Origin: Tetrahymena elliotti 4EA
Lineage: Eukaryota; Ciliophora; Oligohymenophorea; Hymenostomatida; Tetrahymenidae
Assembly (NCBI GenBank): GCA_000231825.2
Contig: JH720301.1
Span: 734,874 to 798,873 of the forward strand
Direction: 5' to 3'
DNA: 64,000 nt
Positions 4,467-63,270 of this stretch are shown piece after piece. The notes beneath the pieces are model-generated. The model made no database searches. It worked only from the letters and a program-made list of their open reading frames with translations, and was not told the DNA's origin. The translations under genes and the position numbers were made by a program. Position 1 is the first letter of the stretch; each line of letters starts with the position of its first letter.

Positions 4467-4983
4467 TTTTAAAAATAACATCAATATTAAATTTAAAATG
4501 GTTTTGTAGTTATTTAGATTATCTGATCATATAAAGTTGTATCACTTTTTACTATTGTTAATAATCAAAATTTTTTTATGAATTCCTAATAATATCTCGT
4601 TAAATATTTTATTTAATTAAGATTTAGATCAAATCACTAAATGATGCTTAAATAATCTTATCAAAAATTGAATTAATTAAATAAATTCGCTTATTTTAGC
4701 TTACTGACTTTAATAGAACTATCAATTTATTTGAAAGCTAATTTTTTAATATCTTTGAAATAAACCTAATATTTTAAAAAAATTAAATTTAATAAATGCT
4801 TATTATATTTTAATAAAAATTTTATCTAAATACTTAAAGTTTTTAACGTTTGCTGTATATAAACATACTTTATTAAATAGTTTATAATTTTATTTAATAG
4901 TTGCGCCAAATATTTATTTAATTACAAAAATTCAAAAATTAAAATTTCAAAAAATCTGATCAAAATTAAAGATAGAACAAAAA

Positions 4984-7900
4984 ATGTAATATAAATATAA
5001 ATGGCATAGGATAAAAACTGAATAAGTTATTGAGAAATATCAGAACTCATCAGCTTTACCATCTTCAAAGATTAAACAAAATGATGTGTCTTCAAGAAAG
5101 AAAAAAGCAAGAGAGTTCAATATGGATTTTGATGAATTTTAATAAGAAGATTCTTAGATAAATTAGAATTCTCATAATTTTCGCTTTGAAGAATCAGCAG
5201 ATGAATTTGGATTTGATTCTCCAAAGACAAAAACAGAAAAAGTAATGAAAGAAGAAAATAGTGCATTCCGTTTAGAAATAAAAAAATCACCTATTTTAGA
5301 TAAGAGTCTCTTCTCATTTTTAGTCAAGTTTTACAATTAGGTTTAATAATCTAAAAAAGGGTAAAGAAAAAAATTTGTATAAAGATTTATTGACTCTACA
5401 TTTAAAGAAAATAGAGATCCCTCATATACATTTACTCTATTAAGATTAATAATCCCTCATCATGATAAATAACGTCCAAACTATGGTTTGAACTATAAAA
5501 ATCTAGCAAAAGTGCTAAGTGAAGTATTTGCTCTATCAGAAGAAAAGCGTTAATAGCTTTTAAACTATAAAAGACCTTTAAAAGATAATTAATAAGTAGT
5601 AGGTGATTTTGGTGAAGTAGTATAAAATGTTTTATAAGCATTTTCCTAAAAGCCAACTTTAACAATAAATGATGTTGATAGATGTCTAGATGAGTTAGCC
5701 TAACCATAAAATAGAGACTTGAGCTCTAAAGAAAAGGTTTTAAGAAATTGCTTGAAGAATGCAACATCAGAAGAAATAAAATGGATTTCACGGTATATTA
5801 ATTTTTTCATTTTTATAAATATTAAAAATATTTTCTACTAAAAGTTTAATCTTAAAAGACCTTAATTTAGGAATTAATCATGAAATAATTCTTGCTTTAT
5901 TTCATCCAGATGCTGTTGTATTATTTAATTCTACTTCAAGTCTTTGGGAAGTTTGTAAAGAGTTTGTTGATCCAAACCATAAATTATCTAATGTTTTAAG
6001 ATTATTTCATCCAATCAAGCCTATGCTTGCTGGTCGTAAGGCTCTTAAAAGCATAGAAACTATACTAAATGGTAAATTATTTTATTGTAATAAAGAAAAT
6101 TTTGTAATATTTTTTTTATTTAAAAAATAAAGGTAAAAACTATCTTGTAGAAACTAAGTTTGATGGAGAAAGAATATAGTGTCATGTATCTCCAGAATCT
6201 CTTATGTATGATTATTTAGATAATTTATTTTCATCTTAAAAATATCTTTTTTTAATTTAATTTCGAGTGTAAAAACTTTTCAAAAATTGATTTAAAATTG
6301 TAATTGATAATTTAATTTAAAAAATAGGTTTTTCACAAGAAATTCTAATAATTACACAAATATTTATGAAAAAATGATAGAATATGTAAGAAGAAGTTTG
6401 AAAGATGCAGTTCATAGTTGTATTTTAGATGGTGAAATGGTTGTTGTTAATAAAATTACAGGATAGAGAGTTTAATTTGGTCTTAATAAAACTATTGCTA
6501 TGGAAAGAGAAGATGATGAGCTTTGTATATGTTATAAAATATTTGATATTTTGTATCTGAAAACTAAAGATAATAAAGAATATTCTCTTACTGAATACAC
6601 TTTGTAATACAGAAAGAGAATCTTAGAAAATTTAATTGATAATTAATAAGACAAAGTTGAAGTCATATTTGGTAGAGAATACTCTGATATAAATGATATT
6701 CTTACTGAATTTAATGAGGCAATTCATAGGAACGATGAAGGTATTGTGATCAAGTAATTAGATACTCTTTACTATCCAGATGATAGGTCTGATAAGTGGA
6801 TTAAAATGAAAGGAGATTACTATGAAGGTATTATGGATACTCTCGATCTTATTATAATTGGAGGATATTTTGGCGAAAAGTCCTATAAAATTAATGGAAT
6901 TGGAGATTGGACTGACCATTTAACGCACTACCTTGTAGCAGTAGCTAAGAAAATAGATTTATAAAATCCTTCTAATTCTATACTTGTGCCTTTTGCTAAG
7001 GTGGGTGCAGGTTTTACAGCAAGAGATTATGCAGATATTAAGGCTAGAATGAGAGATTAATGGGTTAGAACTAATCATTCTAATAAAACCCCCTCATTCA
7101 TAATTTAGAATTGGAAACCTGGAGAAAAGGTAAATAATTAAATGAAAATAAATAAAGTATTTAAATAAAATATAATTAAGGATAAACCAGATGCATATAT
7201 ATTATCACCTTAAAATTCTCTAATTTTAGAGATAAGAGCTACTGAAATCATACAGTCCTCTTAATATCCTACAAACTACACTTTAAGGTATTAATCATGT
7301 TTACTTATATTTAGATTAAGATAATCAATTTGAGTAATTTAACAAATTAAGGTTTCCGAGGTTTGAGAAGTTTAGAAGAGATAAAGATTGGTTTGATTGT
7401 ATGAAATTTAATGAAATCATAGAAATGACTTAAAATTTAAAGAAAAAAGAATAAAAGGAAAGTGATAAAGAGGATAACGCAAGTGATGAAGAATAAGACG
7501 AAAATGGAGGTAAACTGAAGAAGAAAAGAAAAGGTTAGAATGGAGAAGAAATAGAAGTGACTAAATAAGGAAGGAAACCAAACTGGAAAACTAATAAAGT
7601 AATGGCTTAATATCTTGATATTGATGTTTCTGATGTGAAAATTGAATCTAACATATTTAATAACTTTGTATTTAATATAATTAATTTACCTCATGATGTC
7701 TCATTAAGTGAGGAAAAGATTTTGTAGGAAAAAACTCATCTAGAAAAGGGTATAGTTGCAAATGGAGGTAGAAAGGTATAAAATGATAGCAATCTAGTAA
7801 CTCATTATGTAGCATCTCATTACGACTTTAAAGTTTAAGTGATAGCAGATCACTATAAAGTTAACATTTTGTCTTTGTAATGGGTAAAAGACTGTATGAA

Positions 7901-8414
7901 AAAGAAATCTTTAATTGATTACTCTCCTCGTTACATTATTTATGGACAAGATTAATTGTATGAGAGAAATAAATTGCTTTATGACAAATATGGTGATTCT
8001 TTTTTCAAAGATGTGGAAGAAGATGAATTATTAGATATTTTGAAGTCTATGAAAATAGATGAAATAGAAGAAGAGTTTAAAAATGACGAAGAATTTGAGG
8101 AGGCTGTTTATGATATTATTTAAATGAAAAATTAACTTTTTAAAGAATGCTTTCCTCAAGGATAAGTTTATTGCTTTTACAATTTAAATAATAAAAAAAA
8201 TTCGGATATTAACTTGAATTATCTAATTGATTTAATTTAATTTAATGGAAATCAAGTTGTATATGATTTAGAAGATTATATAGATTATATAGTGGCTTTA
8301 GATTACAGTGAGCCAGACAACGAATAAATTATTAAATTTAGATAATAAAATAGAAATATTGAAGTTATTAGCTAATCAAATTTATTAACTAATTTTGGAA
8401 TCAATATTTTTTGA
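4984..8414 (+). CDS. LIG4: DNA ligase IV (NHEJ ATP-dependent DNA ligase)
   Basis: ATP-dependent ligase that seals double-strand breaks in non-homologous end joining, normally with XRCC4. Six exons: 4984-5792, 5845-6071, 6133-6205, 6328-7129, 7181-7287 and 7352-8414, giving 1026 residues; all phases close. Domains: a poorly conserved N-terminal tail (1 to about 85), the ligase N-terminal domain ending near [11 protein letters not shown], adenylation motif [10 protein letters not shown] with nucleophile Lys354, motif III around CILDGEMVV, the DEGIVIK-type motif IV, motif V DKWIKMK, the OB-fold, then a BRCT domain (containing [12 protein letters not shown]), the XRCC4-interacting stretch DKYGDSFF, and a weaker second BRCT. 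An acidic/basic low-complexity linker precedes BRCT1. The BRCT pair and XRCC4-binding stretch separate LIG4 from LIG1 and LIG3. The 51-bp intron 7130-7180 is a multiple of three without TGA, so its removal is inferred. The start is the first in-frame ATG. Confidence 0.93.
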
Positions 8415-9738
8415 TTTAAATAAAATTTAATTTTTCAAAAATAAGCAAAATAATTCATAAATGCTAACAAATATGAAAAATAATGCTTCTCACTTTATAT
8501 AAAAATTTACTTTATCAATAATAGTATGAATAGAATTAATGATAGAGATTTCTATTTTACCTGTCTAAAAATATTTGAAAAATTAACTTTCAAAATAATA
8601 ATAAATTGCTTTATTATATACTCACCCCACCCCTATTTTAACTAATTGATATTAAATTTTAAAATATTATATTATCTTATACGTTAAAAAAAACTTCTAG
8701 TAGATTTTATTTTTTCATATAATCTTAAAGAATATTTTTAAAACTATTGAAGTAACTTAAAGTGTAAGTTAAATTTATTTAATTCTTTACTTAAAATGAA
8801 TTTTTTTAATGATTCCCTTTCATGCTTTAATTAAAATAAATTTTAAATATTTTTCTTTTTAATTGTCATTTTTTTAAAATTGGATTAAAAAACTAACTTT
8901 CAAAATTATTTTAAAACATCAAAATAACTCTTTTACTCATAATTAGAATTTAAAAAATTATTTAATATTAAATTAGGTGAAATGACTCCTCTTTTGTTTA
9001 TTTTTTGTAATGAATAAAATTTGAGAAATATTTAAATCTTTTCTTTTAGTGTTAAAATATTTCAAATGGATTTTAGAATGAAAAAGTAATTTCTTTTTTT
9101 AATAAAGAAAACTTGATCTCTGTTAGTTTATGATTTTTTTTAAGTAATTTTTCTAGACAAATTTTAATTTAAATAATTCTTTTTGTAGACATGTTAATTT
9201 AAAAATTAAAAAATACTTTTAAATTAAAATTGGAAAATTTAGTCAAGTTGTCTAGAATAAAATATATTTTTATTTTGAAAATGGATTAATCTATCAATCA
9301 TACATTAAATAATTAAAAGAATTTTTCAGTGAAAGAAAGATAAAGAGAAAAGAAAAATTGAATAGGAAGAAGTAGCTCTTTTTAAATTTCAATATGATTT
9401 ATAACGAGACAAAATACACCCATACAAAATTGAGAGACACTTTGAGATATCTTAAAAGGAAAAAGAAAGGTTGAAAACAAGGGGAATATCAAATAGAAAA
9501 GATTTATATTTCTATCTAATTTTTTAAGTCAGAAAGAAAGCAAATAGAAATTTGTTTAGACTCTTTTGCTATAAAACAAGTTAAGGAGTAATAAAAAATA
9601 ATACAAATTTTCAAACAAATTAAATATTATCTAAATATATTCTCTACTGTTTTGCAAAGAAACTACAAAACAAGGCAAAGAGATATATTAATAATAGCAA
9701 TATTTGATCAAAACTAACAAAAATATTTGATTCTTGAA
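8415..9738. other. AT-rich intergenic spacer / likely 5' leader
   Basis: No supported gene. The part from about 9330 to 9738 is purine-rich and less extreme in AT, consistent with a 5' untranslated leader of the Myb gene. A short frame from ATG 9282 ends after 26 codons and is not protein-like. Confidence 0.5.
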
Positions 9739-12492
9739 ATGTCGTACTTTATTGAGAATGGTAGCAGAAGAAATTGCAATGAATATAAGGAAGAAAATTA
9801 ATTTAGCAGATAGTCAGATAACTATAAAAAGATTAGCATACCCAACTCATTAGCAATAACTTCGAATGATGATAGAGTTTTAATGGAAATTGAAATTTAG
9901 TTAGAAGGATTAAAAACTCTACTTCAAAAGAATGAATAGTATGGTCATAAATTGAGATTAACTTTATAGAAAATTAATGAAAAGCATAAATCAAATACTG
10001 AAAAATTAAAAGAACTTCATCAAAAGAAGAATGAGATGTAGCAAAAGGCTAAAGTCAGCAAGTATGGCTTTTTGGCAACTTATGGATAAAATCTCTATGG
10101 CCATAAGATTCAGGGCATTTATTTTTACTAATTTGAAAACTATTAGAGATTAGATTGCATTTAAGCATTTGAGTTGATGTCAAAAAAGAACAATAAAATG
10201 CTTAAATAAAATCACCATCATCACATGAACTCATATTACTCCTTTGATAGTGATAAAGTAATAGAACCTGTCAAGGAAGAAAAGCTGTAAATGTTTTTTG
10301 ATAAGTTACCACTACTTTAAAGTAAATTCACAAAGTAGTAAAAACTTGCTTCTTAGAGTGCTGCCTAGTAAAACCAGTACTTTGATAATAGAGATGAAAT
10401 GAGTAGTGCTCAGAATAATGATAGCTAAATAAAATTTGAAGTCACTGAAAATTCTACTTCTCTTTATCTAGAGTTTACTGAAAGTGCAAAAAAAGAATTT
10501 ATTATTCTCTTGATTTTTAATTTTTTAGATGAATAGGTTGAACTTTCAAATAATAAGCAAATCCATTAAAACTCTAATGCAGTAAAAAAGCAGATACAGT
10601 AGACTAATGATGAAATATTTAAGTAAATTCTTTAATCACCTAGTTAAATTTACCACTACATTGACTGGATTGAGTTTGCTAAGTTTGCTAACCTCATAGT
10701 CAATAAATATGGAGCAACTTCTATGGTTGGATACATAGAAGCCTTAGATATCTTTTCTATTTTTAAATAGCTTTTTATTTAATTTGGAGAATAATTTGTT
10801 GTTTCCATACTATAAAATTATTAAAACTCTCAGAGTGTTGCTGAATGTGCCTCAAATTCTAGTTTAACTTAGTCTCCTATTCATACAATCAAAAGTAAAA
10901 GAAATTATAAAAAGAATTCTTAATCTCAAAGTAATACATTAATGGATGTATATGGAGAAGCAACAAGGAAAAAGGGAAGAAAAGAAAATTCTACTTCAAT
11001 AATCAAAGAGTATATGGTAGGAAATTTTAGTGATAGTAAATAAATAAGTAATTTTTTATCATTAATTTAAACCTAACCATCTGAATGGACTAGACAAGAT
11101 GATGAAAAATTAATTAAAGCCGTCTAGATATTTGGTGAAAAAAGATGGGGTCAAGTTTCTACCCTACTAAATGGTAAAGAACACACTGATATTGTCTAGA
11201 GATGGGTTAAATTCTTGAATCCTAGAATTGAAAAAGGGAGATGGAGCTTAAGAGAAGACTTAAAATTAGCTGTACTCTATGAATTCTACACATCATGCAA
11301 AGAAAAGATAGAAAATAAAACATGGTGCTTAATAGCAAACCATTTTACAAATAGAACAGAAGTTTAGATTCGTGAAAGATGGTGTAATCTTTTAGATCCT
11401 AAAATGAAGTTCACTTCCTGGAGTAAGTAAGAAGATATTGCTCTACTTTAATTGGGAGTTAAATATTAAGGATAGTGGGCTAAAATAAGTAGAGAGCTTG
11501 AAAATAAAACTGATAACTAGGTATTAAGACGTTGGAAGCTCCTATTGAGTGATAGATATAATATAAATCTCATCAAACTTTTAGAACTTGGTAGCATTAA
11601 TCTCAGAAAAGAATTTTTAAAACACCATGGCCTTCCTGAAGATTATAATGTTTAAAAACCAGATAAATAAAATGAATAAAAAATTCAGTAATAAGTGAGT
11701 GTGAAACCTTTAGGCATTTAAGAAGATAATTAAGAGCTAAGTTTCTTTTTACCTTAAATAAATAGTGATAATAATACCTCTTAAATACCAGAGCAAATCA
11801 ACATTTTTAAAGACTACTCCTTTTAGTATCCTTACTAAACAAATACTTAATAAGATGAAAAAACATACTTTACCTTTTCAGAAAAATAAACAAATGTAAT
11901 TGAATAACCAAAACCAAAATTTCCTAAATATTTTACTCTTAGAAGAGATAATGATGACAAGAAAAATGAAATGGAAATCGAAGAATAAAAATAAGTTGAA
12001 GAAAAAAAATAAAATAAAGTTTAAGAAATGGTTAGAATTACTTCAATTTCTACTTCTATCCCTAATAAAACTAAAAATATATTCCAAATGATTAAACTGA
12101 CTCCATCTCTAGCAAATCAAATTAGAAAAGATAATTTAAAACGCAGAGAAAAGAAAAAATATAAGAAAAAACCAACTGGTTATAAATAAAAGTAATTCTT
12201 AGTTTCAGCATCTTAGATAGATAACACAAGTACATTTAGATCTAACTATGAAGATGATGATGATTCAGATGACAATAGCTAATCTGCTATGAACTTCACT
12301 GAATACTAAAGTGAAACTAACAATCATGATCCTTCTAGCTATAATATTTCAACTCCTTTAGGTATTAAGAAAAGAATAACAAAAAAGAGCTATCACAGTC
12401 ATATTAATGTTTCTGAAGCTCTGATAAAAATCTAAAACGAAGAAGAAGGATATTAAAGCGAATCCGAAGGTAGTGAAATACCCTCTAATTGA
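9739..12492 (+). CDS. Three-repeat Myb/SANT DNA-binding protein, 917 aa
   Basis: Single exon from ATG 9739 to TGA 12490. An N-terminal coiled-coil region (about 50-110) is followed by a Gln/Asn-rich linker, then three tandem Myb repeats at about 447-612. Repeat 1 contains SEWTRQDDEKLIKAV and WGQVSTLL; repeat 2 contains RWSLREDLKLAVLYEF; repeat 3 contains SWSKQEDIALL and QWAKISREL, with regularly spaced Trp residues. The C-terminal third is Lys-rich, then acidic (a DDDD cluster near 830) and Gln/Ser-rich. Myb repeats of this type bind DNA, so a nuclear transcription factor or snRNA-activating-complex-like role is likely, but I cannot choose between a c-Myb-like and a SNAPC4-like protein. No intron is needed. 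Start choice: first ATG after in-frame TGA, with A-rich context. Confidence 0.85.
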
Positions 12493-13885
12493 GGTATTTA
12501 TTAGCATTATAAACAATAAATTTTGAAAAAATAAGAAAAGAAAAAAAATTTGAAAAAATTATCAATAAAGTTTATTAAAATAAAAATGATATTATTAAGT
12601 AGTGTAATAAAACCTGTATATAACGAAATAAATAGATCACATTTCAATTAATTAATTTAATCAATTTATAATAAAAAACACTTCTTAGTTTAAATCCTGA
12701 CTAAATACTCTTCTCAAATAAGATGTATTTTGTTTGAATATTTATAAAATTAACTAAAAATAATTTGACATGTCTAATCTCATTAGTCATTAAAATTATA
12801 ACTAAACATCTATTTGTCTATTCATTCTTCTTTTATTTTGTTATTTATTTTAATCAAGTTTTTACTAATCCTTCAATTTAAATATTCTCAATTCTCTTTT
12901 TCATAATATTTTATTAAATTCATTTTTTTGTATTTTAGTTTAAATATATGAAACCTTCAAAAAAATGAAAAATCAAATTAATTTTTTAATAAAACTTCTT
13001 TAGGAGATCATAAAAATTCTAAAGAAACAATTAAATATTTTATTTCAATCAAAAATAATATTTTTTAAAAAAATTATCTATCCTTTTTTAAAAGTGATAA
13101 AAGATTTACTCTTTTAATTTATTTTTTGAGGTAAAATAAATTTGACTTTTAATTGATATAAAAATTTAATTTAGAAGAGATACATGTGAATAAAAAATTT
13201 GATTTTTTTAAATTTTGAATTAATAATAGTTTTTAAAAGAAAATTAAAAATTAACTTACTCTATGAAAACTATTTTGATGGTTGTAAAAAAATAAATCAA
13301 TTAAAAAAAAACACAGTTAAAGAATGAAGCTATCAAAAAGATAGGATGCATATAAAGACTAAATGAAAAGGAAGTATTTACACTTTATCAAATCGTCAGA
13401 TAATATTAATAATTAATAAATTAAAAAGAATATATGTTGTGAATTGATATTATAATTATTGTATCGTTTAGCCAAATAAAAAAATAATAATTCAAACAGC
13501 CACTCATTTTTTGATAAACATAATAAATATCAATTTCTTAATGGTGAAATAATCATTCAAAAAAAATAAGATTAATAGAAAAAGAAAATTTTTATGAAAT
13601 GCTGTCGCCCAAATAGCCCAAATAGAATTGTTTGGTATTTTTGGAATTATATAAATTCAAAGCAAATCATATTTCAATAATCTAATATATTTGATAAAAA
13701 GTTTCAACAGAAAATAAATTAAAGGGATAAAAAATAAGGTAATTATTATCAACAACTAATCTCTACAGGTTCAAGCTACTTAATTATAGGTTCATATTAT
13801 CTACTAAAAAGAAAGATTTTCACTCAATCAGTTATCATAGTAGCATAAAGATATTTAGATCATTCATCTTAAAAGCATAATTAAA
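12493..13885. other. Intergenic spacer with one long but doubtful ORF
   Basis: Mostly AT-rich filler. From ATG 13324 a TGA-only frame stays open for 199 codons to TGA 13921, overlapping the calpain start in another frame. Its composition is dominated by Lys, Asn, Gln and Ile with no recognisable domain. Because TGA is rare in AT-rich DNA, such ORFs arise by chance, so I do not call it a gene; it is more likely leader sequence of the calpain gene. Confidence 0.45.
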
Positions 13886-16626
13886 ATGGGAGGAGGATCA
13901 TCCAAAAAGAAAGATAATAATGATATTGAAAAAAATAACTAAGTTGGTCCTAATGGATCTTCTTCAAAAAAAAATGGAAAGAATGGCTAGCAGAGTTCAA
14001 ATAATTCTCCTGTTAAAGGTGGTTTTAAGAGACATAAGCAATTTGAAGTTTCAAAAATCCATCTATAATCTCACGAATTGAATGAAGTAAAGTGCATGAC
14101 AACAAATAAAAGGGTAGTAACAGATTTAGTAGTTGGCAATAATAGAAGCTCTTAGTCATAGTATTAATCTATCTTAGATTAGTTAAACCAGGGAGAAGGC
14201 TAACTTTATTATCAAGATCCTAATTTCCCTGCATAATTATCTTCTTTAACAAAAGACATAAATACTTTTGAAAGGGCATAAAAATTAACTTGGAAGCGTC
14301 CTCAGTAATTCATGATTCAAGAGAAAGGGAGACCCCTCTAATACTATGTGTTTTAAAAAGGAATAGAACCTAATGATGTTTTATAAGGCGATTTAGGTGA
14401 TTGCTACTTTATGTCTGCTCTTTGCTGCTTAGCAGAAAGACCTGGCCTTATAGAAAGACTTTTTGAAACCAAAGAAGTAAATTAGCATGGCTGCTATTGT
14501 GTTTGGTTGTGTCATGATGGAGAATGGACTTAAGTAGTGTTAGATGACTTCTTTCCTTGCTTTAATGATGGTGGGCCAGCTTTTTCAAGGTCTCATGATA
14601 ATGAACTTTGGGCTTTACTTTTAGAAAAAGCCTATGCTAAACTCTATGGAGCTTATGATAAGGTAAGCTATCTATCTACATAAATTATTTTTCATTTTGT
14701 ATTTAAGAAGGACGAAAATATATGAATCATTATTATAATTATCAATCGGATTTATAAATTAAAAATTTAAAAATAAAACCTAAGAAGTTTAAATAAGAAT
14801 AAAAAATAAGCATTTCCAAAATTTTTAAGACCAACCTTTGTCATTTATAAAATCTATTAATTAATTAATCTCGCTTTTTATTAATTTTAAGATTGAATCA
14901 GGTTTGGCTGGACATGCAATCCATGATTTGACAGGGGCTCCATATGAATATTTTATTAGGTAAAGCTTAATCTTAATTTAAAATAGAATAAAAATAGAAT
15001 ATTTTTTTAATTTTTAAAAATTAAATGATGTTAATTTATGTAATAGCACTAATTCTTAAATTTAAATAAATAAATAATAGAGATAATGATGTAGATTATG
15101 ATGAAAATGACATTTGGGAGTTTTTGATGGAGAATTTAATCAAGAGAAACTATATTGTTACAGCAAGCTCAGAACAGAACACCAGACACCTTGAACAAAA
15201 CTAAGATTATTTAGGTATTATCAGTAATCATAGCTATAGTATTTTGGATGCAAGAGAAGTAACTGATAGCGAAGGTGAGAAAGATAGAATCTTATAAATT
15301 CGTAATCCTTGGGGATAGTTTGAATGGAAAGGTGATTGGAGTGATAATTCCTATAAATGGACATAACGTTTGGCATAAGAATTAAAAGTCCAAGAAAGTG
15401 ATGATGGAATTTTTTGGATGAGTGTTAATGACTTCTAAAGCAAATTCAAATAAATCATGGTTTCAAAGATTGAAAATAACTACAGATACAGTAGCATTAG
15501 AAGCAGCAAAGCTCCTGTTTAAGAGAAAGTAACTGTCAGAGTCTTCACAATGAAAGTTTTTTCTAGAACCAGTGCCCATATTGGTGTTTCTTAAAGAGAC
15601 AAAAGAAACTTTGCTAAAAATCCAAAGTTTAAAAATTATAATTACTCACTTATGAGAATAATGGTATCAAGTATAGATAGCGATGGCAATGATAAATCTG
15701 GGTAAGTTGATAGTTTTATTGGATCTGCTTTTGAATGTGAGAGAGATATTTCTTTTGAGACTAAATAACCTTTAGAACCTGGACTTTATCTTGTTTATGT
15801 AGAATGTGATTGGAGTTAAGATGATGTTAGAGAATTCGTGGTTTGGTGCTATGGTGAAAATCCAGTTGAATTCTTAGAAGTTAAATCTGCATAAAATGCT
15901 TTAACTTCATCAACTCCTAAAACTAAATAATTTGGTGATAATGCTTTAATATATGAAAATTTAGTAGATGACTTACTTGAAACTCATTAAGAAGGTGAAG
16001 ACTAAGATAGAATTCACAGATATAATGACTAGATATATCGTACATGTGGCTCTGTTTGTGGTTATGTATATTTCCTTTATGAGAACGCTTCATAAGATGT
16101 TCACTTACGTGAGGAACTAACTATGAAGAATTACTAATATTTAGAAATATGTTCTCCTAAATCCTTCCCTGATTAAGTAAAAGTAAATGTAGCTCCAGGA
16201 GATAGATAGGTTATAAAATATAGAGTAGATGCTCGTGGTAGAGGAGAGTATTCTTATCAAACATCAGTTAATTATATACTATTGTAACATGTAGACCCCT
16301 TTGATGAAAACAAATTAATGTAGCTTGCTTTATTATCTCCTTCAAAAGTAAAATAAAGAGAAATGCATGGACATCAAATGAAGATATTTGTTCACACATT
16401 TGTTTATTATGGTGGTGTATGCTTCTTGTACATCAATAAGACTTCCTCAAAGACTTATGTTGAAGATCTAGAGTTGGAAGTTCACAATCTAAAGAGTGAT
16501 GTATATGACCCTGAAAGTGTACACATTGAAGTTCCTGCTCAATCATAATGGCTTCTTAATTTAGTAACTATTGATTTAAAAGAAGAAATAGCTTATAAGC
16601 CTAAAATGACTTACTACTTAAAATGA
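13886..16626 (+). CDS. Calpain-family cysteine protease, 796 aa
   Basis: Intracellular papain-fold protease of the calpain (C2) family. Three exons: 13886-14662, 14892-14959 and 15081-16626, all in phase. The N-terminus MGGGSSKKKD followed by a Lys/Ser/Asn-rich stretch has a Gly2 suited to N-myristoylation plus a basic patch, predicting membrane attachment (inference). The protease core (about 145-385) holds the complete triad: Cys173 in QGDLGDCYFMSAL, His332 in SNHSYSIL and Asn357 in IRNPWG; the motifs DDFFPC and ELWALLLEKAYAKLYGAY are classic calpain. Two beta-rich C2-like calpain domains follow (about 410-550 and 580-690), then a third beta-rich tail. There are no penta-EF hands, so Ca2+ control would act through the core and C2-like domains. 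Family certain; substrate and membrane anchoring unknown. Confidence 0.95.
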
Positions 16627-18213: not shown

Positions 18214-21200
18214 ATGAGTGACGATGAGAGAAATTCTTAAGTAGATGCTGATACAGCAGGAAATGTGAATAAAAATAACGCCAATATAGATTCTAATAGC
18301 AATCAAGGCGTTAGATTAGATGAAGACAAACCGAACATACTAGATTAGGAAAAAATGAGATTAAATTCAAGTCAAGCTATTTCTTAAGATAAAAATGCAG
18401 CAGCAGATGTAAATAATTCAGCAAACCTTTAAGTTTACAATTTTTAAGTTTCTTTATTTGATACTCCATAAAGTAAAAGATAGGAGAATTGATTTTTTTT
18501 AAAAAAGGATAAGAAGTAGATCATGCTATAGAATTAAAGAAGAGAATCCAAGAGTATTCATTCAATGGATAAAAAGGGAGCAGCAAAGCGTTTATCTAAC
18601 TATTTAGACCCAAACCAATTACTTCAAAAGTAAATTGTTTAGTTGCATAAATAAAACTAAAGTCAAAATGATAAAAACTAGTGAGAGCAAGTTATTGCAG
18701 ATTTATTTAATTTTTGCTTTTTAATTTTAAAGAGCAATACAAAAATGATTTAATTAATTAGTGTAGTAAACATTAATTTTTTAACCCTAATGAAAGAATA
18801 AATGAATGTTTGATAATCAAATAAATGTTTTAATTACTATTTACAGATATGATTGAGAGAGTTAATTCAATTTTTTTTCCAACTAATTTATCTAGTTTTT
18901 TTATCTAAGTGTTTGTTATTCATTAATAACCCTCGCACTTCTACTAATACATTATTTTTAAAATAAAACTGGAATCATTATTAAAAATTTAAAACTTTAA
19001 CTTTTAGTTTTGACTAAACAAAATATTTTTTAATCCAAATTTTAAAAATTTATTTCTAAAATTAATTTATTAATTATTTAAAGGAGAAAAGTAAACTTCA
19101 AAAAAGAGGTGAACCATCTTATTAATAGCAAAATGTTTGACTATTTTATTATTTTTATGGTTATCCTGTATACTCTTATTATTTTCGTTTATTTTGGTCT
19201 TGATACTAAATAATATGACAGTATTGATCAAGTTCAGCTTGCTTTAAGAATTATTTAGTTTATAGAATTATGCATTCTTATTATATTCTGCATAGAAATT
19301 CTCCTTAAAGTATATGGATTATCAGCAGCAGTAATTATTTTTCCTATATGTTTGTTTCAAAAAATTATTTTAAAACAAAAAAAAGGTATACTTCAAAGAT
19401 AAATTCAATATTTGGGATGCTGTTTTCATATTCTTGTCTTTAGTTTTAACTATACTTGATATCATCATTGTAGACTATACATTTTCCATGATTACAAGAA
19501 TTATTAGAAGTGTTTTTAGATTCGTCCGTCTTTTCATTGTATTTAGAAGGGTAAATTATCAAATATTTTTTTTTAAATTTGATATTAATGGTTGTCTAAT
19601 CTATTTTGTTTAAAATAAATAATAAGGTCAATGAAATATAATCTCTCTCATCTTTAAATTTAGAAGGTTCCATAAAAACTCCTGTTGAAAGAATTATGGA
19701 TATTTTTGATATGTTGAAAAGTTAAATTGAAGATCCAGATATGCTTAATTAGCTTAAATGGTAAATTACTTCTATGCTTATCCATTAAGTTTTTACTTAC
19801 AAATTTATTTTTAATCTCTAAAATAGGTGCTAAGAAATGGTTAATAGCAATAAATTGTATGAACCTATACTTGGCGATGGAGAAGCAGCAGTTTGGGGAA
19901 ATATTTATGCATCAAATGGAAATTAGAATAAAACCAAAAAAAAAGTTACTGCTATTAGAAACAATAATGCTTTATCTTTGGGCAACACAGCTAGCATTGC
20001 AGATCCTAACACACCTATGGCTTTTAATTATAAACCTATTATTGTGTCATAAGAGGTATATTTATTATTTTAATCAAAAAAAAAAATTAATTTTTTATTT
20101 AAAGCACACTGAATACTTTAAGAACCTTGACGATATAGGCTTTGATGTTTTTACATATCATCAAAAAGTTTAGGATAACAATTTAGCAAATTTGTTAATT
20201 CACCTTTTTAATAGATATGATGTATTCTTCAAAGCAAAAATTGAACCTCAACATTTATTTAATTGGGCTGTTTTAGTTTCTAATGGGTAAATTTTTATCA
20301 AAAAGCATCCAATTTTAATTAAATTTAAATTAATTAGTTACCAAGAGAATTTCTACCATAGCAAAATGCATGCTTTTGATGTGACACAAGTAACATAAAT
20401 TTAATGAGCTTTATTTACTTTTATATCTTAAATCTACTTTTTTTTCACATAATATACATAAATAAATTTAATAGACTATGCACTTCTTCATGTAATCTCT
20501 AAATTTCATTGGAGTTGCTGAATTATCTGGATTAGAAATAGGTTTAATGTATATTGCAGCTGCTGCTCATGACTATCAACATCCAGGTTTTAACAACCCA
20601 TATCTTATTAACACTAGAAATGAGTTAGCTATACGTTATAATGATAAATCACCTTTAGAAAATCATCATGCTTTTTCTACTTTCTTATTGATGCAAGAAG
20701 AAAATTGCAACATATTTGTCCACCTTTCTAAGGATGAATTTAAAAAATCAAGAGAAAGAATAATAAATATGATTCTTCATACTGATAACTCTTAGCATTT
20801 TGCAGATCTTGCAAAATTGAAAGGAAGACTTACTGCTTAAGGTATTTTAGTTATTCAATATTTTCAAAAAATTAATTGTTTCATTTAAAATTAAAAAGAT
20901 TTTGATCCTAAAGATAAGGATAAAGATATCTGTATGATGTCTCTCTTGCACTCTGCTGATGTCTCTAATCCTTATAAGCCTTGGGAAATATGTAGATAAT
21001 GGACATATAAAGTACTAGATGAGTTCTGGAACCAAGTAATTTATTACAATTAATAAATTTAATTAAAAATAAATGTAAATAAAAATTAGGGTGATTTAGA
21101 AAGATAAAGTGGGTTACCTATCACTTATTTATGTGATAGATTTACAACAAATACAAGTAAAAGTCAAGCAGGTTTCATAGATTTTATTGTTAAACCTCTT

Positions 21201-21350
21201 TATGAATCTGTTCAGAAATTTTTACCACTGCTTGATTTATCTCCATTTGAAGTAAACAAAGCTAAATGGGCTGAGCTAGTTGATTTCTACGAATTAGAAT
21301 TACAAAAAATAAAGAGAGAAAGTGAAATTCTTGAATTGGAAAAGGTTTGA
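18214..21350 (+). CDS. Voltage-sensor domain fused to class I cyclic-nucleotide phosphodiesterase
   Basis: Predicted membrane enzyme hydrolysing cAMP and/or cGMP, with an S1-S4 voltage sensor. Proposed exons: 18214-18408, 18508-18680, 19084-19330, 19386-19550, 19627-19760, 19827-20055, 20105-20286, 20338-20389, 20475-20841, 20899-21035 and 21090-21350 (713 aa). S1 is about 140-162; S2 176-202 with two Glu; S3 213-233 with Asp216; S4 has Arg243, 246, 250, 253, 259 and 260. No S5-pore-S6 follows. A linker (about 261-380) leads to a PDE domain with all catalytic residues: general-acid His449 and metal ligands His453, His491, Asp492 and Asp602, plus invariant Gln653. From residue 123 on, splice phases and motifs agree, so the fusion in one transcript is well supported. 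The first 120 residues are uncertain: an in-frame TGA at 18490 must be spliced out (I used GTAAAT at 18409 to AAAAAG at 18507), or the true start is ATG 18562-18570 or elsewhere. Substrate is not predictable from sequence. Confidence 0.88.
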
Positions 21351-45975: not shown

Positions 45976-47632
45976 TCAAATTCTGCTTTGATAGATTACC
46001 ATATTTTGGACTTTATTTTAGTGAATGCCAGAACTTTTGTTAAAAATATTTATAAATGAATTAATATTCAAAAATAACTAATTTTACCCAACTTGATTAG
46101 CGTTGTTTTTCTTGTTTAAATCGTAATCTTTTTTTTAAGCTTCTCTTCTATACTTATCTTCTTACTATTTAGCAAAGAGCTTTTAAAATATTAAATTTGA
46201 TTAATAAGGCATATTAAAAAATTAATTTTTTACTTTTTGTTCTTCTAATTTCATAAGTTAATTCTTTGATTATTCGTAACCTTCTTCACCAAGAATAGCT
46301 ATCATCTTGGATTCCTAAGTAGCCATAGGACGATAATATTAATCGTAATACTTAGCCATAGATCTGTGACCTAGAACCTTACCAGAAGGTAAAATAATTT
46401 CACCAAGATTATTTATTTTAGCTTTTGTTTCTTGTTGGCATTACTTGTATTTAAGATATAATTCTTAAGCTTTTTACTTAATTTATTTTTGCTCTTCAGT
46501 CAAATCTTCATCATCCTTTGAAAGCTCTCTAATCATTTCCATTAATTTTTAATCACTTTCTTAAGAGATAATTTCATAGTTTGATTCAGATTGAGATTAT
46601 TCTGACTGTTACTACTAATCACCCATAATCTTTTCAGGAATTGAGCTTGAATCGCTTTCATCTTCAGCTTCTGACACTTCAACTATTCTTTCATTAGCCT
46701 TAAACTTATTCTTGAGAGCTTCTTCTATAGCAAGTGTAAAATCATAATACTCACAATATAAATCGAAAAACTACTCATTATTCATGAAACAATGGCCTTT
46801 TTGAACCATATGCTTTTTAACTCCTTCTGCATCTGCAAATCCTTTAGTATTTTTGTTTTCGCAATAAGGGCATAATAATTTTTCATTAATTTGCTTAGCT
46901 AAAAATAAAATGAGTCCTGAGAGGTCTTTTATATATTTTTCTTCGCAAATAAAGAATCCATGAACTCTTTCCATATGTTTAATATTGCTTTTTATTTATA
47001 AAAATAAAATCAATGTTTGAATTATTTTTTCAATCTTCAAAATCCACTTACTCGTTCAAATCATCATTAATCTTATCGCAATATAAACAAATTGATACAT
47101 CATCAAGAGTTGTACGTCTTTGTTCATTCTAGATGAAATCTAAATGTATTTCCTTATCTTCAATTTTATAATTAAGTGCATTTTCTTAATGCTTTCTACT
47201 TTATAAATGCTATTTATATGTTTAATGAGAACCGAATTCCTTTCTATTATAAAAATCAACATTTTTTCAGCTATTCAATATCATAATATTAAATATTTAC
47301 TTGCAAATCATGCATTTTAAGCAATCAGTAACAGAGGTACTTTGTGATTTTTGACCAGAACTTAAAAATTCTATATAATAAAATAAAATTTTAATTATTT
47401 ATCTTAAAATATTTTTTAGATCAATCTATTGATCTTTCTAAATTGAATAATGATATTTACATCTCTAAAATTCTTCAAAAGTTGCAGGAGGTAAGTCAAG
47501 CATTTTACGCTTGAGGTTGTAACGATGGTAATCTGATTTAAAGTGTATCTTGTAGTTAGCATCTGTGTCGAACTCTAACTAACAGCAGTAGCAACGGAGG
47601 CCTTAACCTCCTTTGATAATATCCATTTCCAT
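45976..47632 (-). CDS. REI1: REI1/ZNF622-like 60S ribosomal subunit maturation factor
   Basis: Cytoplasmic zinc-finger protein that, in yeast, releases Arx1-Alb1 from pre-60S subunits. Exons in coding order: 47632-47461, 47370-47301, 47243-47052 and 46987-45976 (481 aa). The first zinc finger near the N-terminus (RCYCCQLEFDTDANYKIHFK) runs directly into the family hallmark SDYHRYNLKRKMLDLPP. A second finger is completed by splicing (CMICKKEFGSHQTYKQHLQSRKH); two further pairs follow (CLYCDKI... and CPYCENK...GVKKHMVQKGHCFM). A Gln/Glu/Ser-rich acidic stretch precedes the conserved C-terminal part ILPSGKVLGHRSMAKYYDQYY. Near the stop a 54-bp AT-rich stretch (46034-46087) has GT..AG ends and is a multiple of three, so the true protein may be 463 aa. 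Family assignment is strong from the hallmark segments. Confidence 0.92.
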
Positions 47633-48560: not shown

Positions 48561-51500
48561 ATGTAGAGTGACTAAATTATCAAAACAGTTATACAAGAAC
48601 ATGATATAAATAAAGATGCAAATATCATATTCGATCTTAGTATAACGAGCAGTAAAGTTTTAGTTGGAGAAGATAACTTTTATAGAGCAATAGTTTGTGT
48701 TAAAAATGAGAAAATTGCAAGTATTATTATAGACCCTTCTTAGAATTAGCTAGAGGAAATAAAAAGATTCAGTACTAGCTTTATAAATTATGGAGATAAA
48801 TATATAATGAGTGGAATAATAGATATGAATGTGAGCTTACACTCTAATTATGAAGAAAAAGAATGGAGTGAAATATAAAATTTAACTAGAATAGCTCTAG
48901 CAGGAGGTATTACTATGGTAGTTAACAACCCAATTTTGGAAAATGAACAAAACATAGTAGAATTAAATTAATAATTATGCGATTGTAGGGAGAAAATTCA
49001 AGTAATGTAAGATGAAAGTTTAGTTGATTTTGCTTAACTAACGTTATTAACAAAAATAAATTATTAAGACATGTTTGATAAAGAAAAGGTAGATCATTTA
49101 AAAAAACACATTATTGGATTTAGGACTTATTTTTCTCCATCATTTTAACCTGAAGTTGACTACTGTTCTAATAAGAGTTAAATATTACAATTTATTGACT
49201 AAATTAAGAACTTGGAGGATATGAGTATTTTTATTCACCCAATTTATCTTTAGTGTGAAAAAGAGTTAGGAGTTACTAGTCCAATGCGCAACCTCAAAAT
49301 TAAATCAAGAGTGGATATACAAAAAGCTATGGATTGTGTGAATGAAAAAAGTATCCCTTGCTCGGATGCAGTTCTTGGAGAAACACATGAAGAAGAGAGG
49401 TGGTCTTCAGTAGAATTAGAATCAATTCGAAATGACAAAATTCAACAAAAATTACTTAAAATATTTCCAATGGCTCAATAAAAAACAATGCAATCAGCAT
49501 TAAAGTAAGAGAAAATCTATATAATAGAATTTAATGAATTTTATAAATTTAAATTTTAAAGCTCGTTTGTTTGCCTTATAATTTAGCAAGAAGATTTATT
49601 TGGTTTAAAGATAAAACCAGAAATACATTCAAGAATATAAATTGAATGAATAGTAAAATAAGAGTACAATTTCTAAGATTATTTTTTAAATATTAGATTA
49701 TTAAGTATTTAGGAAAAAAGTTAATATCTTTGTTAATCTCAAATTGATTCTGGAGAGAACAATAAATCTGAAGAAGGAGAAACTTCAAATGAAGATCAAA
49801 ATGATAAATACTTAGAATTTAAGAGCCTTAATGACGCTAAACATAGCTTCCTTAGCATAGAAAGCGAAGATGAAAATATCAATAATCAGCACTCAAGTAA
49901 CCCATGCGAAGCGACAGGTTAAAAATAAAATAAGTTATCTAAAAAAGTAAAATTTGTAAGACCAATATCTATAAATTTAGACAGCTCGAAAATTATTAAC
50001 ATTTCCAAAGTAAATTTAAATTTATTTAATGATTTAGGATGAATCTTTCTATCTTTTCATTTATTTCAATGATTATCAAAAATTTATAATATTTTTATTT
50101 TCTTTTTATTTACCCTAAAATATCTAAACCAATATTATTTCTGTTTACATTCAAGTGCTTTAATTTATAAAATTGAAATTCCAATAGAATGATCCTGAAT
50201 AGAGTCTTGAAGAATTAACAGAAACAGGTAGTAGAACAACTTATAGGATTAGCTTATCTCCTTAAAAAGATTAGACAAAACCTGAACAAAGCAAATAAGT
50301 CTGCAAAAATAGAAGTAGTATATTAAATAATATAGAAGAAAATAGGACTGACAAAAACGAATCCAAATCTATTTTGAAATAGATAGCTACATCAAATTAG
50401 AATGAAATTTAAAAATAAAATAGTCCAAGTTCGCTTTTATCCATTCGTCCAAAATCAAATTCAAATTTATTGATCAGAAGAAAGCTGTAGCAAGTTAAAA
50501 ATGAAAATAAATCAATTAACTTTAACAGCATGAGAAAAGTGAATTTTTTAGTCCTTTCTAATTCTAACCTGTGTTTACCTACCAGTGATTGTAATGTTTT
50601 AAATGAAGAAGAAACAGAATCTAAAAATAGAATGAAATATATCAACTCTAAAACTCATACCAACTTAACAGAAACCTCTATGCATTAAATTGATGAAACA
50701 ACTTGTGACTAAAGCTAAGGTATAAGCTTGAGGACAATAAATATAGCTGGGGAAGGATTCACTCGTATAAGAAGCTAGACTTCTTCTCATGTTCTTAATT
50801 TGAAATAAAATACTAAAGATTTAGAAAAAAAGTAGAAACTCAGAAGAGATTACTTAAATTTTCTAACTTTTCGTCCCCCTTTTTGGGAAAATATAGCTAT
50901 CAACTTTTTTAAATAGAAATTTATTGAGTATAAATAAAACAAAGTTAATTTTTAACCAACTCTCATTTTTACTAATGTTTCAAACTCCTATTCTGTTGCT
51001 AAAATATTTAGATAAAAATTAAGAAATCCTAGTTTTAAGTTACACATAGAAGTATCTACCCCATTTTTATATTTTGACTCTTCTAATATAAAAGAAGGAG
51101 AAACAAAATTCAAAAATGAGCCAGCTATTTATGATAAACTAAATAAAAAATTACTCCTTTCTGAATTAGAAGTTAACTAAGTAATTGATTGTGTTGGATC
51201 TAATCACTTTTATGTTCCTTTAAAATACAAACCTCAAGACTTTACAGTAGCATTTAATGGCTTAAATTCTATTGGAGGAAATTTATATACCTTATGGACA
51301 TTATCTTGGATTAATTTGAAGCGAAAATTCAAATAAGATATTAAAGATCAATAAAGGGTCAATACTGGTTTAAATTAACAAGAATTGTAATATAATTAAA
51401 ATAATTAATCGAAAAATTAAGCCAGCTCTGAAAATAGTTAAAATGTTCCAATTATTAATGAAACACATACATGCTAGAATGTTACAAAAGTAACTGAAAA

Positions 51501-51987
51501 TGAGAATAATTTTTAAGATCAATTAAAATTTGATAACTTTAATATAGATTTACTACAATATAATTCAGAAAAAATTGAAAAAAAGATTATAGAAATATCA
51601 AAATTGCTCTCTGTAAATCCTTCTAAAATATTGGGAATTTAAAATTAAAAAGGATAAATAAAGGAAGGCTTAGATGCTGATTTTGTTGTTTGGGATCCTT
51701 TTGAAAAATCAGTATTTGATGTACAAAACTTTCAAACAAATAAAGATATTTGCTCTCTTCATATTTATGATAAAAAAAACTTTTATGGTAAAATATATTC
51801 TACTATTATCAGAGGAAACATTCTTTATAATATTTCTGATGAGTAAATAAAAAATGACAGTTTTACAGAACTTGATAAAAAAGATATAGAAAGCTTATTT
51901 TAAAATGATTTTACCATAAATCAAAAAATTAAACATGTGTTCAAAGATAAATCTGAATTTAAGGCAAAATTAATTACAAAAATTTGA
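48561..51987 (+). CDS. Dihydropyrimidinase/allantoinase-like amidohydrolase, predicted inactive, with large insertion
   Basis: Three exons: 48561-49504, 49697-50009 and 50188-51987 (1018 aa). The N-terminal barrel start GIIDMNVSLH (about 85-94) and LAGGITMVVNNP match the cyclic amidohydrolase pattern, but the metal-binding His-x-His is Asn90-x-Ser92. After IFIHPIYLQCEKELG (about 222) comes a roughly 400-residue Ser/Asn/Glu-rich insertion, then the allantoinase-type YLNFLTFRPPFWENIAI (about 641), KLHIEVSTPFLYF and CVGSNHFYVPLKYKPQDF, where the catalytic Asp of the usual SDH is Asn758. The C-terminus is closest to allantoinases: LLSVNPSKILGI, GLDADFVVWDPFEKSVFDV. The usual metal ligands are replaced, so hydrolase activity is unlikely (inference); a structural or regulatory role is possible. 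Exon 1 is joined over a 192-bp intron to avoid TGA 49645. Confidence 0.85.
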
Positions 51988-60460: not shown

Positions 60461-62917
60461 TCAGTGCCAAATACAAATGCTGTGATCGTTGCTGCCAGAT
60501 ATCAATGTGAACTTTTCAGGTAAATAGCTCAAGCAGCTTACAGCACTTGTGTGGCTTTCTAATGTTTTAACACAGACTGCTCCATATCCATGTCTTGAAT
60601 CTTAACTATTTTCTAGAGTTTCTCCTTCTTCATAAGCCCATATCTTAATTTTATTATCACTTTAACCACTAGCTATATAATGTTCATCAATTTTGCACAG
60701 AGTGTAAATTGATTGATTTGGTACTCTTATGATCTTAAATTACATAAAATTATATTAATTTTTATTAGTTTAATATTTAGAGAGAATGATAAATATTTCA
60801 ATTCAAAAAATTAATAAAATTTTCTTCTTTTTTTCAGATTTTACTGAACAAATTATTTAAGAGATAAAGATATAACTGAACTTTTAATGAATTGTAAATA
60901 AAAAGCTTGAATTTTAAAACAAATTTTTTAGTGTTTAAAAATTTTAAATAATTGGCTGTTTAATTTCTTAATTTACCTTTGTTTGTATCCCTTAAACATA
61001 GTTCCATATGCGGATAGTTTAATCTGCACTACCAGAGGCTAATAAATTCTTTTTTAAGTAGCATATAGTATGAACAGCTTATTTTGGACCTTTTAGTGTA
61101 CACAAAACTTCCTTTTTATCAAAATTGTAAACTTTAACTGTAGTGTCTTTACTGCATGAAGCTAAAAAAGAATTTGTATGTAGGAATGCTATTTGGTAAA
61201 TAGCTTAGGAATGATAATTTGCTAAATGGTTTAAAACTACCTCTTATTTCCAATTCCAAATTACAATACTATTATCAGAACCACAACTTGCTATAACCTC
61301 TTCATTTAAATTTACTATATAGTTTACACCTCCTTTGTGACCCTTTAGCAATTTTATCATTGCTTCAGTCTCCCACTCATAAATCCTGATTAATTTATCT
61401 GATCCACCCATAGCAACTGTTTTTGAGTCTAATTTACATAAAGAGAGGATATGATTTTTAGAGGAGGAGGAATCGGTCCATGTTTTTATAGGTTTTTATG
61501 TTTGTAAATCCCAAAAAATAACTTTTTTATCAGATGAACAAGAAGCAAATAGATTCTCATTAATTCTTTCTATTCTTCCAATCCACCCCTTATGCTCTTA
61601 TAGCTTTTTAATACATAAACCTTTTAGTTTTAATTATAGAGTTTTTCTTATAAATGTGTTGTTTCCTTCTTAATTTGCATATTTCTCATCTTCTTGCTTT
61701 TATTCCTCCTTCCTCTATCTCCAATTATAAGTCTCTTTCGAACTGAAAAAGGAATTCTTTTGCTTTTATATTTATGACTAGATATTATCCTTATTTAAAG
61801 GGGAAGCTTATTCCTAATTATTTTAAATTTCATTTTATTCTTGTAAAATATTTTCACTCCTATTTTATCTTAGATTTTTAATCCCTTTAGATTATTGCTG
61901 TTATTTTAGATTATTTTCAGCTCTTATTTATTCCTTATCTAAAATCTACATATCCTCAGTCCTTTAAGTGAAAGCTTTATACATATTCTTTTCCACCTTA
62001 GCTATTTCTTTTTTAATGTCGTCAATAAATAATTAGAAGTTCGCCTTACTAACCTCTACAGATTCGTTTTATTCAGAGTTATATAAAATAAGTGCCAACT
62101 ATAATTAAGAGTTGTCTTAAAACGAAACTTATTAATTAGCAAATAAATTTAATATTTTTTTATTTTCTTGTGAAGAGAGGTCATTCTCATAACCACTTAG
62201 AAGTTCATCACCTATTAAACTTGCACTATCAATTAGTTTAAATTTTTCTTCTTTAAAATCATTAAGCATGCTGTTAAAATCATCTTGAATTTTTTGAATC
62301 TTTTCTTGTATTTATTATTTAGCAGATTCTTTATTTATTTACTCCAAAAGCTATATTGTATGCTGAGATTTTGTTTGAATTTCTTGTTTGAAAGTTTCAA
62401 TTTTTATGAGCTCATGCTTAGGATGAGGTCCCTCAACATGGCACTCTGCACATGCTATCTTAGAGAGGGCTGAACAATTTTATTATATGCAAATATATTT
62501 ATTTTTGATATCATGAATCAAACATTTTTCTGGTAATACATTTTGCACATCTTCGAAGTTACCAGCAGCATTTTCAATTAAAGGATTTTTTTAATCAATC
62601 TAATCTTAAATTTCCTCCTTAAAGTCAATATTATTAGCAATTAGTTGATCTGTAATTTCATTTTTCTTCAAAAGTTCTTATTCATCAAATTCATTTTTTA
62701 TTTGAAAATTAAATTCCTAATTTACAGACTATTCAATAGGTTCTTGTTTAACAGTAGATGCTTGACTAGATATAAGAGGATTTTCTTATTAGTTGGCTTC
62801 ACCATCAGATTACATAAAATTTTAGATTTGTTCCTTTTTCACCTGAATATCTTCCTCTAAATTTATTTAATCATTTTGTGGCTACTGTTAAATATTAGAA
62901 TTTATGCTTATATCCAT
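60461..62917 (-). CDS. B-box zinc finger, coiled-coil and seven-WD40-repeat protein, 737 aa
   Basis: Two exons, 62917-60977 and 60733-60461, joined over a 243-bp intron in phase 0. Residues 1-125 are acidic/Gln-rich. A B-box-like zinc finger follows (about 130-175: Cys132-x2-His, C...C...CAEC...GPHPKHELIKI), then a long Gln/Lys/Glu coiled coil (about 178-420). The C-terminal half (about 430-737) holds seven WD40 repeats, each with the GSxD...IxIW-type ending (for example SCSSDKKVIFWD, GSDKLIRIYEW, GSADQTIRIWNY, GSNDHSICIWH), enough for one complete propeller. Without a RING finger it is not a classical TRIM ligase; a protein-interaction scaffold is the likeliest role (inference). The combination of B-box-like finger and WD40 is common in ciliate genomes. 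Confidence 0.9.
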
Positions 62918-63270
62918 TATACTTACTTTTGAGATTATAATAAACCTTTCATTTAAATGATAATTATTAATTTTGGGGTATTAAATTTTCAAGAGATATT
63001 TTGCAAACATGAATTACACCTCAATTTTTTTGAGGAAAAGCAATTTTTAATGAGCTTTTAAATCTTTAAGGAATAATAAAACAAAATAATTGGTATTCTT
63101 TTCATTATAAATTGATAAAAAATAATTACAAATTTTTTTTTACTTTTCGTAAAATCTAATAAGATTAAAGTAGAATGTAGGAACAATAAAATAAAGATAC
63201 TCCAACTAGAAAGTTTTCTAAAAAAAGAAACTAGCAGCTGAGTACAATCATAGAGAAAGGGGAAAGCTAT
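62918..63270. other. Short divergent intergenic spacer
   Basis: About 350 bp between the divergent starts of the WD40 gene and the last gene. No promoter motif identified. Confidence 0.55.

Follow-up and report, generated by a model that had tools for sequence, protein, structure and literature searches.

Voltage-sensing phosphatases (VSPs) provide the established example of direct control of an enzyme by a voltage sensor, and Hv1 is a voltage-sensor domain (VSD) without a pore. Human class I phosphodiesterases (PDEs) carry PAS, UCR or calmodulin (CaM)-binding regulatory parts and are not known to carry a VSD. In a 64,000-nucleotide stretch of the Tetrahymena elliotti 4EA genome (contig JH720301.1, positions 734,874 to 798,873; hereafter the window), we analysed a gene predicted to join these two kinds of module: a pore-less VSD followed by a class I PDE. 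The passages of the literature drawn on here describe several neighbouring arrangements. Adenylyl cyclases carrying a K+-channel-like part are well known from alveolates, namely ciliates and Plasmodium (PMC5746546, PMC4588038), and the link between voltage and cyclic nucleotides has so far been discussed mainly through cyclases (PMC4588038); RhoPDE of choanoflagellates fuses a membrane sensor to a cyclic-nucleotide PDE (PMC8774190). In Toxoplasma, an ion-transport domain with PDEase_I is reported for TgPDE4, together with many substitutions in its catalytic region (PMC7720076), and portions of an ion-transport domain are reported for TgPDE4 and TgPDE16 (PMC8809380); both papers suggest a link of these PDEs with ion transport. 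Clade B of eukaryotic PDEs holds human PDE1, coccidian PDEs including TgPDE4 and TgPDE16, and PDEs of free-living alveolates (PMC10865986). Among the matches listed in a search of openly licensed literature we found no paper on a voltage-sensing PDE, which does not prove that none exists.

On balance we favour the reading that the window gene encodes a pore-less VSD and a class I PDE in one membrane protein, in which depolarisation likely moves S4 and raises cyclic-nucleotide hydrolysis at the membrane. The original prediction, made from the letters of the window, had proposed this architecture of pore-less S1-S4, intracellular linker and class I PDE; it is upheld by the sequence, by family searches, by relatives and by predicted structure.

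The gene lies on the plus strand at 18214-21350 and has 11 exons (spliced model, coordinates rechecked); each of the 10 introns opens with GTA and closes with AG, the host genome reads TAA and TAG as Gln, and VSD and PDE share a single reading frame of the spliced model. The prediction of one multi-exon gene stands, while its 713-residue product was slightly off: the model gives 696 or 695 residues, set by the exon-3 acceptor (19084 or 19087), and residue numbers below follow the 695-residue version. We guided 5' splicing by P0001 of T. thermophila, itself a gene prediction and the closest named protein (91% identity over the search-query region; 84% over the draft region covering VSD and linker). 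A first 5' splicing was out of frame and rejected; a second, open over 752 residues, was dropped for the model agreeing with P0001, having served as query in the early family and relative searches. The start codon at 18214 is putative, as the P0001 model begins about 100 residues farther upstream. The parts of the gene are as follows.

18214-18408 and 18508-18629, plus strand: exons 1-2, N-terminal cytosolic low-complexity region, residues 1-105, boundaries taken from P0001
19087 (or 19084)-19330, plus strand: exon 3, S1 at about 19133-19210 and S2 at about 19229-19324, from the translation, the Ion_trans match and the AlphaFold2 (AF2) helices
19265-19267, 19286-19288 and 19295-19297, plus strand: S2 residues E166, F173 and E176 in exon 3
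19386-19550, plus strand: exon 4, S3 at about 19404-19469 with D198 at 19416-19418, S4 from about 19479
19497, 19506, 19518, 19527, 19545 and 19548, plus strand: S4 arginines R225, R228, R232, R235, R241 and R242 in exon 4
19627-19760, plus strand: exon 5, where the model extends the S4 helix to about 19668 (low confidence), followed by the conserved linker motif KTPVERIMDIFDML
19827-20055, plus strand: exon 6, linker with the conserved WCQEMVNSNKLYEPIL helix followed by a variable stretch of low confidence, without hydrophobic segment
20105-20286, plus strand: exon 7, where the PDE catalytic fold begins (VIA-align matches start at P0001 residue 455-463)
20338-20389, plus strand: exon 8, PDE signature YHSKMHAFDV with H431 and H435
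20475-20841, plus strand: exon 9, H473, D474 and H477, then LENHH (E503)
20899-21035, plus strand: exon 10, HSADVSNP with H581, D584 and N587
21090-21350, plus strand: exon 11, SQAGFID (Q635, F638), C-terminal helices and TGA stop

The residues named in the original prediction for the voltage sensor are all read in the translation: acidic E166 and E176 in S2, with F173 between them, D198 in S3, and S4 arginines R225, R228, R232 and R235 spaced 3-4-3, followed by R241 and R242. Taken alone, the VSD segment matches Pfam Ion_trans with 44.5 bits (E 1.4e-11), and the match takes in no more than positions 2-119 of the 241-position profile, which correspond to S1-S4 without S5-pore-S6. A hydropathy scan and the family alignment likewise gave no S5-pore-S6 after S4 and a linker without hydrophobic segment, and the sensor is pore-less, as predicted. 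With hmmscan, Ion_trans was not reported for the whole 752-residue draft or for whole P0001, unlike the stored annotation of P0001, which lists PF00520; for the relatives P0003 and P0009 it was reported with full-length queries. On the Kyte-Doolittle scale the window protein has hydrophobic stretches at residues 117-147, 152-190, 192-227 and 222-240; a further, marginal stretch (452-471) lies inside the PDE; S4 is above threshold in the window protein and below it in P0001.

Structural models agree with this layout. In the AF2 model of P0001, helices 222-247 and 254-285 correspond to S1 and S2 (subtract 100 for window numbering), and the S4 helix spans 319-356, its confidence (pLDDT) dropping from about 80 to 50 toward the end; four transmembrane helices are thus predicted, with S4 extending into the linker at low confidence. 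These helices, as modelled on P0001, come together with an S2 Phe/Glu pair, an S3 Asp and repeated basic residues in S4. Folding alignments comprised 29 of the 91 relatives (A1) or 14 of 23 printed fragments, P0007 left out (A4). PDEs took up the results of structure searches with the whole model, so the VSD was modelled on its own. Against solved structures the VSD segment matches CaV channels, 3wkv (an Hv1/VSP chimera), Hv1 and TPTE2; alone, it reaches E 1e-5 with the Hv1 structure 5oqk and E 9.3e-6 with 3wkv. A six-sequence family profile gave E 1.7e-22 for a CaV chain (channel chains sum several VSDs), 8.7e-12 for 3wkv, 1.2e-11 for TPTE2 and 1.1e-10 for Hv1.

The C-terminal part is a predicted class I PDE with the residues for cAMP/cGMP breakdown. 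PDEase_I matches the 752-residue draft with 278.8 bits (E 5.4e-83), and no other family was reported for the draft as a whole or for P0001; a structure search returned the catalytic fold of PDE1B, PDE7A and PDE4D. H431, H435, D438, H473, D474, H477, E503, H581, D584, N587, Q635 and F638 are present, which bears out the proposal of a catalytically complete enzyme: the HD metal ligands, the His that acts as general acid and the invariant Gln are all in place. By the roles known for class I PDEs, H431 would be the general acid and H435, H473 and D474 metal ligands. In six relatives (P0103, P0114, P0116, P0123, P0124 and P0126) the invariant-Gln position reads Ser, either a real change or a misalignment.

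Between sensor and enzyme lies a linker of 155-257 residues (36 rows, window included). The exon-5 motif is conserved in the family, and the linker holds a conserved module of the form TPxEkvleIL...WciemIsSNKLYEP. The linker shows a suggestive but weak resemblance to the part of PDE8 that precedes its catalytic domain (E 0.0033, probability 9.7). An origin of the linker in the PDE1 N-terminal/CaM region was considered and rejected: the shorter linker alone gave an hhalign probability of 0.8, and linker plus catalytic start gave E 9e-13, but with the clear alignment falling in the catalytic domain. Searched against Pfam, seven linker pieces gave no match to PF08499.

The gene is one of many. 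Among the 120 matches listed, out of 295, 37 proteins carry PF00520 and PF00233 together. Predicted fusions occur in Tetrahymena, Ichthyophthirius, Pseudocohnilembus, Paramecium pentaurelia, P. bursaria, P. tetraurelia and Chromera velia, and many environmental proteins among these matches also have both domains; no Toxoplasma sequence is named there. The search of other ciliates for this architecture, advised at the outset, thus returned same-order fusions and, beyond the ciliates, Chromera. A separate search for relatives, which scored the 7998 candidates having most words in common, found both domains in 12 of 91 proteins, some of them dinoflagellate-type with a different layout. In the 90-Mb, 134-contig assembly of the same genome there are 24 PDEase_I matches at at least 11 loci, and clear VSD exons lie upstream on the same strand at 4 of 11: the window, L021, L024 and L025. 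Their S4 segments, read from sequence, are RIFFRFMRLFIILRK (L021), RAIFRFLRIFLLLRK (L024) and KGMFRFFRIILLFRK (L025); regular expressions found 5/5, 4/5 and 4/5 PDE motifs, respectively, and were too narrow, missing the window's own S4. L030 (C42) has a weak 24-residue match to the VSD profile (E 0.027) and was not counted. Family scores, the orthologue P0001 and the three further loci in the same genome exclude chance as the source of the VSD-PDE gene, and at the level of predicted proteins the observation is confirmed and widened to a VSD-PDE family that spans ciliates and one chromerid or more.

In a catalytic-domain tree of 54 rows, 14 ciliate-type rows including the window form one clade (support 96/93). 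The tree test (p-AU 0.277; 28 rows, P0010 included) neither establishes nor rejects a single origin for all VSD-PDEs; on the free tree the VSD-PDE label needs 4 changes, 2 of them forced by well-supported branches (27 rows, P0010 excluded), and the placing of PDE1 rows among those of VSD-PDEs depends entirely on open branches. The Chromera-type VSD-PDEs P0128 and P0129 have, by eye and in fragments, extra hydrophobic segments before S1. Five dinoflagellate- or Perkinsus-type PDEs with the stored label PF26726 (P0028, P0049, P0063, P0012 and P0017) present a second membrane-sensor PDE layout, with an S4-like segment of roughly RAARxxKLGARAGRxTR (P0017 begins inside it) and two more transmembrane helices flanking a non-hydrophobic stretch before the PDE; the first three alone pass the Ion_trans cut-off.

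We counted conservation across 135 VSD columns in 24 rows including the window, at a mean pairwise VSD identity of 29%. The family alignment has 52 rows (window plus 51), of which 16 were excluded (truncated rows, dinoflagellate-type rows with P0015, P0005 and P0010), leaving 36; removal of 10 near-duplicates left 26, and of P0001 and P0098, 24. The eight most conserved columns are R232, E176, D198, R242, L170, F173, R235 and R241. Seven of them are among eleven VSD positions picked earlier (hypergeometric chance 1.9e-8, an optimistic figure, since family alignments had been viewed before the positions were picked). This conservation, the strongest evidence on the point, suggests that the VSD does more than anchor the enzyme. 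In 14 of the 16 excluded rows the S4 positions 232 and 235 carry basic residues; the exceptions are P0010, which lacks them, and P0121, which stops short of the VSD. Three observations weigh against more than an anchoring role: P0007 is without most of the conserved VSD residues, P0010 (excluded before the column count) is without the S4 arginine row, and E166, R225 and R228 are kept only partly across the family alignment. P0007 and P0010 keep the N-terminal hydrophobic helices and the PDE with most or all S4 arginines lost, and are possibly voltage-insensitive derivatives.

Direct voltage control of hydrolysis is likely, and as a hypothesis both well motivated and well supported. In the mechanism we propose, the protein would sit in the cell or ciliary membrane with its PDE probably dimeric, and S4 would carry the gating charge. 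Depolarisation would drive S4 outward, and the movement would pass through the S4-linker helix to the conserved linker module, which would change access to the PDE active site, relieve inhibition and raise hydrolysis. The main substrate may be cAMP, with dual cAMP/cGMP use possible: we base this on PDE4 structures and on the Asn at 587, as in cAMP-type PDEs. One paper cautions against deducing the substrate from phylogeny (PMC10865986). The direction of control, more hydrolysis on depolarisation, is proposed because of an analogy with Ci-VSP and because the Paramecium cyclase is described as producing cAMP on hyperpolarisation (PMC4588038); the VSD-PDE would be the breakdown arm opposite that cyclase.

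Other explanations deserve weighing. The VSD-like segment could be a mere membrane anchor, dimerisation or targeting module, with a PDE that voltage does not regulate. The helices that P0007 and P0010 retain despite a degenerate S4 fit such a role, and published passages describe up to six transmembrane helices in malaria PDEs and, in many apicomplexan PDEs, such helices without a defined regulatory role (PMC5746546, PMC10865986). Were the segment a plain anchor, however, one would hardly expect F173, E176, D198, R232, R235, R241 and R242 to make up 7 of the 8 best-conserved VSD columns at a mean pairwise identity of 29%, and we consider the anchor explanation unlikely. Improbable to a greater degree is an Hv1-like proton path through the VSD, with the PDE sensing local pH or scaffolded beside the conductance. 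The matches of the VSD alone to 5oqk and 3wkv are in its favour, as is the interpretation of the Toxoplasma relatives as tied to ion transport (PMC7720076, PMC8809380); yet the pore segment is absent, and CaV and Ci-VSP match the VSD as well as Hv1 or better. Judged by eye, the S1 selectivity Asp of Hv1 would probably face a Tyr here; the tool alignments printed covered calcium channels only.

Alternatively, the VSD might partner or regulate a separate pore-forming channel, placing the PDE in the channel's nanodomain, so that voltage would act on the channel and not on the enzyme. VSDs of the Ion_trans family normally serve pores; against this, VSD and PDE stay one predicted protein, with the linker lengths given above, in all 36 rows, and we give this idea little credence. 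A mistaken fusion of two neighbouring genes, made at the intron between exons 4 and 5, is very hard to credit: the exon joins are indeed predicted from genomic sequence, but the same order of domains recurs in predicted proteins of T. thermophila, Ichthyophthirius, Pseudocohnilembus, three Paramecium species and Chromera, and at the three other loci of this genome.

Elsewhere in the window, calpain-type cysteine protease (Peptidase_C2) open frames lie upstream of the VSD-PDE gene (13598-16626, plus strand). The plus strand also holds an ATP-dependent DNA ligase (4960-8411) that comprises N-terminal, catalytic and BRCT parts and matches DNA ligase IV, a 1005-residue open frame with Myb DNA-binding repeats in three stretches (9475-12492) and an amidohydrolase-like C-terminal segment (49342-51987); the minus strand holds a protein with two copies of a C2H2 zinc finger (45976-47055) and a WD40 beta-propeller protein (60803-63247). 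Rfam and tRNA scans of the 64-kb window were empty.

If voltage does control hydrolysis here, voltage-sensor control of enzymes would extend to second-messenger breakdown, and ciliates would have a one-molecule link from membrane potential to the cyclic nucleotides controlling ciliary beat. The VSD-PDE could also serve as a voltage-controlled cAMP/cGMP eraser, and the "ion transport domain" of Toxoplasma PDE4 and PDE16 gains a testable alternative reading. T. thermophila is genetically tractable, and its orthologue makes the claim directly testable. A broader view, to which we give slightly less than even weight, is that VSD-PDEs are a second class of voltage-controlled enzyme, by which ciliates and chromerids turn membrane potential directly into cAMP/cGMP breakdown without pore, Ca2+ or G protein, and that they are perhaps ancestral to the PDE1-like class I branch.

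Compared with known systems, the catalytic fold is common to PDE1, PDE7 and PDE4, and the membrane part sets the protein apart. Hv1 has a similar VSD and stands alone, whereas about 450 residues of linker and enzyme follow the VSD here. RhoPDE senses light through a rhodopsin, whereas the sensor of the VSD-PDE is of the voltage-sensor type (PMC8774190). TgPDE4 and TgPDE16 we compare by published description, and in the passages cited their membrane part is not described as a voltage sensor (PMC7720076, PMC8809380). The alveolate adenylyl cyclases, as described, share the fusion of a voltage-gated-family membrane domain to a cyclic-nucleotide enzyme, but they make cAMP and have a six-transmembrane K+ channel part, whereas the VSD-PDE would degrade and has no pore; no cyclase family was reported in the 752-residue draft at E up to 0.1. 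Like Ci-VSP and TPTE/TPTE2, the VSD-PDE has its pore-less VSD on the N-terminal side of a cytosolic enzyme, here a cyclic-nucleotide PDE and there a PTEN-like lipid phosphatase. PTEN-like phosphatase and C2 domains are absent from the families reported in the whole draft and P0001, and the VSD-PDE is therefore not a VSP. Nor is it a channel or a cyclase; in its working it would come closest to a VSP equipped with another enzyme.
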